A stretch of DNA of 64,000 nt, from assembly GCF_000147875.1 (NCBI RefSeq), contig NC_014507.1:1984001-2048000 (forward strand), in the 5' to 3' direction. Position 1 is the stretch's first letter. Each line of letters opens with the position of its first letter. Positions 40,543 to 43,803 of this stretch are shown here, piece after piece. The notes beneath the pieces are model-generated. The model was not told the origin of the DNA, did no database searches, and saw only the letters and a list, made by a program, of their open reading frames with translations. This DNA comes from Methanolacinia petrolearia DSM 11571. Lineage in GTDB: Archaea; Halobacteriota; Methanomicrobia; Methanomicrobiales; Methanomicrobiaceae. The position numbers and the translations under genes are program-made.

Positions 40543-40771
40543 GAAATCGCAGAATAAAAGACAGAATAATCGGTGCAGTTTCAATTAGACCAGAATTGTG
40601 AAAACCAGACCAGAAGAGTAACAATCAGAATCACTATGACACCACAGCAATTCAATAACCAAATATATCAATAACTTTTTTTGTGACAGGCACAGGATGG
40701 CACTTTATAATACACAGACCCTGCATAATATTTCAGAAAAAATAATCAGGAACACTTTATACAGAAAAGAA

Positions 40772-40842
40772 TGCGATAACCGGGATTCGAACCCGAGTCA
40801 GAGGCTTGGGAAGCCACCGTCCTACCGCTAGACTATTATCGC
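40772..40842 (-). tRNA. tRNA-Gly (anticodon CCC)
   Basis: On the minus strand the acceptor stem GCGATAA pairs with TTATCGC, the T arm is ACTCGGGTTCGAATCCCGGT, and the anticodon arm GGCTTCCCAAGCC has CCC at 40808-40810. Discriminator base A. CCA is not encoded. Confidence 0.95.
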
Positions 40843-40956
40843 ACAGCTGCTGATGCAGAATTATTTGTTGTTGTTTTTATCAGATAAATCTTATTTATGG
40901 AGATCGTTGGCACCACCAGGCAACCCCCATGCGATTGTTTTATTATCACTTATTTG

Positions 40957-40965
40957 AAATATATA
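40957..40965 (+). promoter_or_regulatory. TATA box before structured RNA candidate
   Basis: AAATATATA centred at 40961 predicts a transcript start near 40987, just before the first helix of the RNA candidate at 40995. Confidence 0.5.
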
Positions 40966-40994
40966 TGAAGCACTGATTTCTATCGTGCTGGCTT

Positions 40995-41097
40995 ATGTAA
41001 GTCCGACGTGCCCGACCGAATTGAGACGGCACTGCCCTGAATCCAGGGCTTTGGGATTACAAAAAGGTCAGTTATGGCTCTTTTTGTGGACTTACAT
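40995..41097 (+). ncRNA. Candidate four-helix structured RNA
   Basis: The closing helix pairs ATGTAAGTCC (40995-41004) with GGACTTACAT (41088-41097). Inside it are GTGCC/GGCAC (41008-41012 with 41028-41032), GCCCTG/CAGGGC (41034-41039 with 41044-41049) and ACAAAAAG/CTTTTTGT (41059-41066 with 41080-41087). All are perfect, giving a cloverleaf-like four-way junction of about 103 nt. It matches no RNA class I can name. It lies upstream of rps15 on the same strand, so it could be a free RNA or part of the rps15 leader. Not a tRNA: no T-loop or acceptor end. Confidence 0.6.
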
Positions 41098-41137
41098 GAC
41101 ATTGCGGACAATATTTTCGTGTTCGCTGAAATTATCT

Positions 41138-41207
41138 TCAAAACACGCGTGAAAAGATTCTTTCATGCGATGTTTGCCGGAAATCACACAGTGATTTCGA
41201 AATAAAA
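41138..41207 (+). repeat. 70-bp two-hairpin repeat, diverged copy C
   Basis: Aligns with copies A and B without gaps: TTTCATG, then TTT, then AAATCACACAGTGATTT at the same spacing. The second stem is fully kept with a changed loop, and the first keeps TGAAA/TTTCA while the loop differs. It ends 16 bp before the rps15 start. Confidence 0.65.
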
Positions 41208-41222
41208 ATAAGGTGGTGAAAA

Positions 41223-41681
41223 ATGGCAAGAATGCATGCCCGTCGGCGCGGAAAATCCGGTTCGGTTCGTCCGCTCCGCACAGAGGCACCAGAATGGTCA
41301 AACAAGGACCCCTCAGAGATCGAAAAAACCATCATAGATCTTAGAAAGGAAGGAATGTCAAGTGCAGGCATTGGGCTCGTAATGCGTGACAAATACGGAG
41401 TTCCGAGCGTAAAACTTGCAACAGGCAAGAAGATCGAACAGGTCCTCGCAGAGAACGGACTTGCGCCCGAGATCCCTGAAGACCTCAGGAACCTTATAGT
41501 TAAGGCTCTCGGAATGCGCAAACATCTCGATGAGAACAAGAAGGATATCCACAACAAGAGACAGCTCCTTCTCACCGAAGCAAAGGTTCGCAGACTCGGG
41601 AAGTACTACGCAAAATCCGGCAAGATGCCAAAAGACTGGACATACAAGCCGGATACAGCAGAGTTCCTGTTATCAAGATAA
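41223..41681 (+). CDS. rps15: 30S ribosomal protein S15 (archaeal uS15)
   Basis: 152 residues, the usual length in archaea, with the archaeal/eukaryal N-terminal extension ARMHARRRGKSGSVRPLR and the S15 core LRNLIVKALGMRKHLDENKKDIHNKRQL. It binds the central domain of 16S rRNA early in 30S assembly. SD AAGGTGGTG lies 4 bp before the ATG. It opens an operon with recJ, pcc1 and rps3ae; the leader contains repeat copy C and possibly the structured RNA. Confidence 0.97.
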   Translation: MARMHARRRGKSGSVRPLRTEAPEWSNKDPSEIEKTIIDLRKEGMSSAGIGLVMRDKYGVPSVKLATGKKIEQVLAENGLAPEIPEDLRNLIVKALGMRKHLDENKKDIHNKRQLLLTEAKVRRLGKYYAKSGKMPKDWTYKPDTAEFLLSR

Positions 41682-41708: not shown

Positions 41709-42926
41709 ATGTCCATTGAAACATCGGCAGGCCTTGTTGCTGAGAAACTTGAAAAATCCGACTATGTAAGGGTGTTCGGGCACCACGATGCAGACGGCAT
41801 AGCCGCAGCTTCGATAATATGCCACGCACTCTACAGGCAGGGAAAGAAGTTTCACCTCAGCATAAAATCAGGGATAAAACCGGAAGATATCAGGAGCCAC
41901 GAGATTACTGTTCTCTGCGACCTAGGATCATCCATGGAAGACCTGCCCGAAGACACGGTGGTAATAGATCATCACATTCCGTGTTTCAATGGAGAGTACC
42001 ATATCAACCCGCGTCTTTTCGGAATAGACGGAGAACTGGATCTCGCCGCATCAGCGGTCGCCTACATGGTCGCAGATCATATGGGAGACAACCGCGACCT
42101 GTGCAGTCTCGCACTGCTCGGGATGATCGGAGACCACCAGGAGATCGCCGGCAAAAACGCAGGGATCGTGAACGAAGGAATTGCAAACCAGTTCATAACC
42201 CCGGGACGGGGAATCCCTCTTGCAGGGGACGACATAACCGAAAAGATATACACGGCAACAGACCCTTACCTGCCCGGAATCAGCGGCAACCCTGAAAAAG
42301 CTCAAAAGATGGTCGAAAAATTCTTCGACGACAGCGAAAACGGATACGAACAACTCCTGTCGGCAATTGTCCTCGAGACAGCCTCCGCAAACAACGAGAG
42401 AGCGATGTGCTCCCTGTGGGGAGATACATGGGAACTCCAGCGGGCGGTAATCCACGATGCCCACACGCTTGCATCGGTAACAGAATCATGCGGACTCTCC
42501 GGAAGAGGAGGTCTTGCAGCGATGCTATGCATGAGAAACGATGAAACCGTGGATGAGGCAAAGGAGATTGCATTAAAGCACAGGCTCGAAACGATCGAGG
42601 CGATTGCATCTGCAAAAAGATACAACGAAGCAGGTCCGGCGATCTTTAAGATCGAGAATCCGTCCGTATCAAGCAGTGTGGCAGATGTTCTTGCAAGAGA
42701 CGGACTGCTTGACGTACCCGTGCTCACAATAGCAAAGATCAATGGAAACTATTCCGTATCGGCCCGCTGTCCTGCCAAAATCAACATTGACTTATCGACA
42801 GTCATGAAGGAGGCAGCTGAGTCTGCAGGAGGCACCGGAGGCGGCCATAGATCGCGTGCAGGAGCAAAGATCGGAGAAGATCAGCTTATGCCTTTCATCA
42901 AAAACATCGAGGAGGCGCTTGCATAA
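41709..42926 (+). CDS. RecJ-like DHH exonuclease
   Basis: 405 residues. The DHH motifs VFGHHDADGIAAA and VVIDHHIP mark the catalytic domain with its Mn-binding Asp/His, and GTGGGHRSRAGAKI is the DHHA1 substrate-binding motif. In archaea such proteins include GAN, which works with the replisome (GINS), and RNA exonucleases. The position between rps15 and pcc1 is conserved in Euryarchaeota and hints at RNA or translation functions too. Its stop overlaps the pcc1 ATG. Confidence 0.9.
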   Translation: MSIETSAGLVAEKLEKSDYVRVFGHHDADGIAAASIICHALYRQGKKFHLSIKSGIKPEDIRSHEITVLCDLGSSMEDLPEDTVVIDHHIPCFNGEYHINPRLFGIDGELDLAASAVAYMVADHMGDNRDLCSLALLGMIGDHQEIAGKNAGIVNEGIANQFITPGRGIPLAGDDITEKIYTATDPYLPGISGNPEKAQKMVEKFFDDSENGYEQLLSAIVLETASANNERAMCSLWGDTWELQRAVIHDAHTLASVTESCGLSGRGGLAAMLCMRNDETVDEAKEIALKHRLETIEAIASAKRYNEAGPAIFKIENPSVSSSVADVLARDGLLDVPVLTIAKINGNYSVSARCPAKINIDLSTVMKEAAESAGGTGGGHRSRAGAKIGEDQLMPFIKNIEEALA

Positions 42927-43198
42927 TGCAAATTTCCGGCAGAATAGTCTCAAAACATACCGATGCCCGTTGCATCGCGGAATCATTGTCAGCGGACAAT
43001 CTCCTTTCCATGGAGACGAAGGCAGACGGAAACAACGTGGTGTGCGAGATCAGGGGAGAGAAACTGAGGTCGGTTATCGCATCGGTCGACGATTATCTGA
43101 TGAATCTCTCGGTTGCAGAGGATATCTGCAGTCTGGGAAATAAAAACGAAGATCAATCCAGGATTACAGGAAAATCAGAGAAAACAGAGGTGAATTAA
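42926..43198 (+). CDS. pcc1: KEOPS complex subunit Pcc1
   Basis: 90 residues. ADGNNVVCEIRGEKLRSVIASVDDYLMNL is the Pcc1 core. It is the dimerising subunit of the KEOPS complex, which transfers the threonylcarbamoyl group from the Sua5 product to A37 of tRNA. The C-terminal 15 residues are charged and probably disordered. It overlaps recJ and its stop overlaps the rps3ae start by one base. Confidence 0.88.
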   Translation: MQISGRIVSKHTDARCIAESLSADNLLSMETKADGNNVVCEIRGEKLRSVIASVDDYLMNLSVAEDICSLGNKNEDQSRITGKSEKTEVN

Positions 43199-43803
43199 TG
43201 GCACCAAGAAGAAAATCAGTTGGAAGAAGAGTTGAAGGCTGGAAAGCCAAAAGCTGGTACAAGGTATACGCTCCCGACTACTTTGACAAGGCGTACCTTG
43301 GCGATACAATCGCAAACGAGCCCGAGAAAGTCAACGGGCGCGTAATGCAGACGACACTCGGCGAGATGGTTCAGGATTACTCCAAGCAGAACATCAAGAT
43401 GAGATTCAGGATCACAAATGTTGCAGGAGATTCCGCATACTCCGATTTCGTCGGGCATGAACTGACAAAAGACTACCTTCGTGCAATGGTCAAGCGCCGC
43501 ACATCAAGGATAGACAGCATTGTTCAGGTAACAACAAAGGACGAAAGAAAGATCCGCGTAACCACAAGCTGCTTCACGATTAACCGTGCAGATGCAAGCC
43601 AGGCGCATGCAATCAGAAAAGCAGTGACTGAATATGTCGTTGCAAGGGCAGCGGAACTCACCTACGACCAGTTCGTAAAAGAGATGGTCATGGGCGACAT
43701 CTCCCGCGAAGTCTTCAAGATCGTAAAGAAGCTTCACCCCATCCGCCGTGTTGAAGTGATCAAATCAAAGGGAACTGATACAAAGGCCGCAATCGTCCAG
43801 TAG
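43198..43803 (+). CDS. rps3ae: 30S ribosomal protein S3Ae (eS1)
   Basis: 201 residues. KAKSWYKVYAPDYFDKAYLGDT, MRFRITNVAGDSAYSDFVGHELTKDYLR and VTTSCFTINRADASQ are conserved S3Ae blocks. The protein is specific to archaea and eukaryotes and sits on the 30S platform. The ATG overlaps the pcc1 stop, so it should be translationally coupled. Confidence 0.97.
   Translation: MAPRRKSVGRRVEGWKAKSWYKVYAPDYFDKAYLGDTIANEPEKVNGRVMQTTLGEMVQDYSKQNIKMRFRITNVAGDSAYSDFVGHELTKDYLRAMVKRRTSRIDSIVQVTTKDERKIRVTTSCFTINRADASQAHAIRKAVTEYVVARAAELTYDQFVKEMVMGDISREVFKIVKKLHPIRRVEVIKSKGTDTKAAIVQ

Follow-up and report, generated by a model that had tools for sequence, protein, structure and literature searches.

A conserved alternative fold in the S15 leader of Methanomicrobiales suggests a built-in switch upstream of rps15

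We examined a 64,000-nucleotide stretch (the window) of the genome of Methanolacinia petrolearia, an archaeon earlier named Methanoplanus petrolearius SEBR 4847 (PMC3035365, PMC4149034), and in particular the 5′ leader of rps15, the gene for ribosomal protein uS15. Pfam assignments give the gene order after the leader as S15, a recJ-like DHH protein, a Pcc1-domain protein and S3Ae (Table 1). A tRNA-Gly (CCC) gene at 40771-40843 on the minus strand is transcribed away from the leader, with about 95 nt between it and the likely TATA box of rps15.

Table 1. Features of the rps15 leader and neighboring genes; positions are those of the window.
Feature	Position	Strand	Basis or remark
Likely TATA box of the rps15 promoter, TTTTATTAT	40938-40946	+	Consensus position in relatives
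P0 hairpin AGCAC...GUGCU, start of RF03137	40969-40989	+	Rfam alignment; in both folds
Possible state A extension GGC, pairing with GUC 41067-41069	40990-40992	+	99% of cells paired, 78 sequences
Shared 5′ arm AUGUAAGUCC	40995-41004	+	Partner 41054-41060 (state A) or 41088-41097 (state B)
P2 stem-loop, 5 bp (41008-41012/41028-41032)	41008-41032	+	Rfam model; covariation
P3 stem-loop, 6 bp (41034-41039/41044-41049)	41034-41049	+	Rfam model; minimum-free-energy fold
State A 3′ arm GGAUUAC, end of Rfam model	41054-41060	+	Rfam alignment; 100% paired, 78 sequences
Hairpin with U tract in its 3′ side	41059-41087	+	Hairpin before U tract in relatives
U5 tract, putative termination signal	41081-41085	+	Run of at least four U after motif in relatives
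State B 3′ arm GGACUUACAU, absent from Rfam model	41088-41097	+	Conservation; pairing in relatives
Extra 5′ UTR from switch to rps15, with further predicted hairpins	41098-41222	+	Fold prediction
rps15 (ribosomal protein uS15, 152 aa)	41223-41681	+	Pfam PF08069, PF00312
DHH/DHHA1 protein (recJ-like), first gene 3′ of rps15	41709-42926	+	Pfam
rps3ae (S3Ae)	43198-43803	+	Pfam PF01015

The segment 40969-41060 was identified by cmscan as RF03137, the S15-Methanomicrobia ribosomal protein leader, at 66.7 bits against a gathering cut-off of 42.2. The match spans the whole model (1-74 of 74), stands 24 bits over the cut-off and is the only one in the window from clan CL00121, S15-Halobacteria (RF03143) not being retained. 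This leader was published in 2020 (Eckert and Weinberg, PMC7247131), with the claim that it imitates the multistem junction at which S15 binds 16S rRNA; S15 binding and rps15 repression were predicted there on comparative evidence, and recJ and rps3ae are named among the regulated genes. The window has the same context, with the Pfam S15, DHH/DHHA1 and S3Ae genes following the leader in that order. The rps15 transcript carries this RNA as its S15 autoregulatory leader, whose place in the S15 leader family we regard as virtually certain.

The first-pass annotation had recognized a structured RNA upstream of rps15, as conservation and compensatory changes in relatives now confirm, and had matched it to no known RNA family, which the RF03137 score refutes. 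The covariance search in Methanomicrobiales that it proposed recovers the RNA in 183 of 199 genomes, but as a family already described; none of 240 genomes of the same phylum beyond the order yielded a match. This occurrence, together with the match in the window, rules out an unknown family. It disposes likewise of the same annotation's free-standing cloverleaf RNA of about 105 nt, to which we give next to no probability: the very stable fold would suit such an RNA, but the sequence matches an rps15 leader family, in the relatives examined lies within the 5′ leader between a conserved promoter-like box and rps15, and carries a U tract inside the cloverleaf.

The TATA box first assigned to this RNA, TATATATA (about 40958-40966), is probably misplaced. 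It ends a few nucleotides before the P0 hairpin, so that transcription would start within the conserved motif, and we rejected it as the promoter for this reason. Relatives have a YTTADNW box whose positions cluster at 51-54 nt ahead of the 5′ arm, or 23-26 nt ahead of the first hairpin. Judged by this consensus position, the true TATA box of the window is likely to be TTTTATTAT, which lies within CGATTGTTTTATTATC and resembles the CGATA(C)CCTTAATAT of relatives.

The four perfect helices (10, 5, 6 and 8 bp) of the first-pass annotation are all present as described and make up the minimum-free-energy fold of 40957-41097. They had been judged unlikely to arise by chance, in agreement with the energy of this fold (-50.3 kcal/mol, z = -5.1), which none of 200 dinucleotide shuffles equaled in stability. 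The 10-bp helix is a closing stem joining 40995-41004 to 41088-41097, and the 8-bp helix joins 41059-41066 to 41080-41087. A fifth hairpin at the 5′ end (stem 40969-40973/40985-40989) had been overlooked, and is part of RF03137.

The closing stem is not that of the family model. In the Rfam structure, here called state A, G40997-A41000 pair with U41057-C41060, and C41003-C41004 with G41054-G41055; this fold makes the multistem junction likened to the S15 site. In state B, the cloverleaf of the earlier annotation, the arm 40995-41004 pairs instead with a second 3′ arm just beyond the U5 tract. The same 5′ strand is used in both, so the two states are mutually exclusive; the cloverleaf stem is genuine, but belongs to an alternative conformation missing from the Rfam model. 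The window RNA agrees with RF03137 in sequence, in the P0/P1/P2/P3 fold, in gene context and in taxon, but the model stops at 41060, without the hairpin, the U tract or the second 3′ arm at 41088-41097. A literature search, confined to main texts, turned up no description of this second stem. We also considered an extension of state A (40990-40992/41067-41069); this was rejected, as its covariation is weak and it competes with the hairpin 41059-41087.

Conservation of state B was examined in 131 collected leaders, 78 of which were placed in an alignment built without structure information. Ungapped pairing of the 5′ arm with a downstream 8-mer at all eight positions occurs in 74 of the 131, against 2.3% of shuffled downstream regions, and at least seven of eight B pairs, with one bulge allowed, in 122. 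From the start of the U tract it is mostly 5-7 nt to the start of the B arm. Within the alignment the core of this arm is conserved at 0.71-1.00 per position and the positions beyond it at less than 0.55. Paired cells make up 93%, and 14-45% when the partner is slid by 1-3 columns. With the shuffle limited to the 16 nt that follow the U tract, B folding fell from 115/122 to 57/610. Taken together, conservation, position and the shuffle test make the case for state B, which by these sequence comparisons is kept across almost the whole order Methanomicrobiales, and which is very probably real and functional. The leader combines two conserved, mutually exclusive folds with a common strand, and has a termination-like signal beside them in the U tract, as expected of a two-state r-protein attenuator; that it is a two-state RNA is well supported, as is its switch anatomy.

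Nine leaders have weak or missing B stems: all four sampled of genus g31, some of family f2 and a few divergent ones. In the g31 leaders (L106, L107, L112 and L113) the first hairpin is rearranged, CTCTTCTC replaces the U tract and the second arm is weak; these divergent leaders may regulate differently. Four leaders of the Methanocorpusculum-like family f6 (L038, L048, L125 and L126) have very long extra loops in the hairpin before the U tract. In these leaders the U tract begins 55-76 nt after the motif, and both it and the second 3′ arm are still kept.

The S15-Halobacteria leader RF03143, of the same clan CL00121, has the same junction (GCAARUCYGAC ... GGGAUUGC) and also lies upstream of rps15, but its closing stem is arranged otherwise; in five sampled leaders from five genomes any alternative 3′ arm did no better than chance, and a U4 tract was absent. 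Five further rps15 leaders, from families f8 and f14 (L245, L246, L247, L254 and L255), have no Rfam match and have CTTCGCCA in common, mostly with a TATA-like stretch 20-30 nt ahead of it; in L255 it forms the loop of a perfect hairpin, GTACAG-CTTCGCCA-CTGTAC. From their sequences these are possibly a different, undescribed S15 leader.

Covariation could be followed at position 41001, which is unpaired in the Rfam structure and pairs, with 41091, in state B only. The pair is GC in 55, GU in 12, AU in 9 and AA in 2 leaders of the 78-leader alignment; the corresponding counts among 77 named relatives are GC 47, GU 19 and AU 9, with A never opposite C. The rps15 tree of these relatives requires three G-to-A changes at 41001, always in lineages with U at 41091; an independent-pairs sign test had only three pairs to work on, and so no power. 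In several species of the Methanospirillum-like genus g35, U40998 is replaced by C and its state A partner is then G (GCAA with UUGC), while the B arm, GGAUUUUGC, pairs with one bulge. P2 covariation is strong at 41011-41029 and 41012-41028. When all column pairs were ranked against a tree-based null, only two P2 pairs stood clearly above it and the B stem was not singled out, the ranking being too weak here because the stems are nearly invariant. The 8-bp core being so little varied, formal covariation is limited to one pair with double changes. Independent changes from G to A number only three, and by these sequence counts the covariation for state B alone is modest.

With both states forced, B has the lower energy in 98% of leaders, by a median of 7.7 kcal/mol; the window values are -49.9 kcal/mol for B and -36.8 kcal/mol for A. 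The order of folding was taken from equilibrium folds of transcript prefixes, and is not a statement about kinetics. By this measure the growing window transcript forms A from 41060, loses it from 41086-41089 and attains full B at 41097. Among 122 leaders, the 5′ arm has A-type pairing at the U tract in 114 and B-type pairing 16 nt later in 115, and both are seen in 107.

In 123 of the 131 leaders the motif is followed by a run of at least four U, the other eight having no U4 tract. A hairpin ends 0-1 nt before the tract in 119 of the 123 (median z -2.4). Poly-U stretches after the motif are the sole such feature in the main text of PMC7247131. We found no support for the idea that the tract is freed in A and paired in B, its unpaired fraction being 0.39 in A and 0.33 in B; in the window it is paired within the hairpin 41059-41087 in both states. 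These features call to mind a bacterial-type intrinsic attenuator, in which the hairpin 41059-41087 and its U5 would terminate alone and B would be a by-product. Such an attenuator would be helped by the holding of A at the U tract in most leaders, and by the mention of poly-U in PMC7247131. It leaves the conserved B arm unexplained, however, and a hairpin is not strictly required in archaeal terminators (PMC8716108); we hold such an attenuator to be improbable. Bacterial r-protein leaders and attenuators (E. coli S15; Rho-independent) are alike in that an r-protein binds one of two exclusive leader folds, but the window RNA is not a member of those families, and its deciding 3′ arm lies after the U tract. 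That placement suits a factor acting behind polymerase, such as FttA, rather than a hairpin terminator.

The archaeal termination ribonuclease FttA (aCPSF1) binds U tracts, and in tests with two-tract RNAs no fewer than four U in each sufficed for binding (PMC8716108). FttA contacts nucleotides -1 to -36 behind polymerase, favors U-rich RNA at -30 to -36 and cuts 22 nt back from the RNA 3′ end (PMC11616081). When the U5 of the window is placed at -30 to -36, the arm 41088-41097 falls at about -18 to -33 and covers the cleavage site.

We propose that the nascent RNA would fold first into state A. Excess S15 would bind and lock this state, 41088-41097 would remain single stranded, and FttA could then act at the U tract, turning rps15 down. 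Were S15 absent, the RNA would refold to the more stable B once 41088-41097 exits polymerase; B would pair the stretch that FttA needs and so remove its substrate, and transcription would go on and rps15 be made. We give this whole explanation, a two-state S15 leader with FttA termination at the U tract, a probability of about 55%. That S15 favors A and represses is probable, while for the output we infer transcription termination at the U tract at roughly even odds. More tentative, and somewhat short of even odds, is the idea that an r-protein sets the strand behind polymerase paired or free for FttA, which would be ligand-controlled FttA-dependent termination without a bacterial-style terminator/antiterminator pair. 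The hairpin and U tract, which together resemble an intrinsic terminator, count against the FttA mechanism, as they would act before B forms.

The distance between switch and gene bears on a further alternative. From the B arm to the rps15 start codon there are about 125 nt in the genus of the window and 18-30 nt in much of the order; measured from the end of the arm over the order, the median is 27 nt (quartiles 23-63 nt). The extra 5′ UTR at 41098-41222 is seen within the genus (in L052, and in altered form in L053), as is a hairpin predicted in it at about 41180-41200, GAAATCAC-aca-GTGATTTC (L052; altered in L053). In the classic S15 leader of E. coli the target is translation, and in the same manner the exchange of A and B might alter access to the rps15 ribosome-binding site or trap the 30S subunit, the U tract being incidental. 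With the B arm of most relatives so close to the start codon, the ribosome-binding site would lie just behind it, which favors such translational control. The 125 nt that separate arm and start codon in the window speak against it, and by eye no GGAGGU-complementary stretch of the leader switches with A and B; we consider it unlikely, though it keeps an appreciable share of the probability.

Control might also be exerted on RNA stability or processing, with the B helix cut or protected by a ribonuclease and S15 altering mRNA half-life rather than termination. The mutually exclusive folds and the stability of B would fit, as would the additional hairpins in the 125-nt UTR of the genus, but the keeping of a U tract between the two 3′ arms (123/131 leaders) is then unexplained, and we give this reading little weight.

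The S15 leader identity was known; what the present analysis adds is the conserved alternative fold, which plausibly makes the protein-binding motif a switch. That this second fold is incompatible with the known one suggests that the leader has a built-in on/off switch. As to how archaeal r-protein leaders lower expression, the main text of PMC7247131 points only to poly-U stretches. With one strand common to it and to the S15 site, the conserved second fold is a concrete, order-wide candidate for the expression platform, and it tells precisely which bases to mutate. Were the switch FttA-based, it would reveal how archaea can place factor-dependent termination under the control of a ligand-binding RNA.
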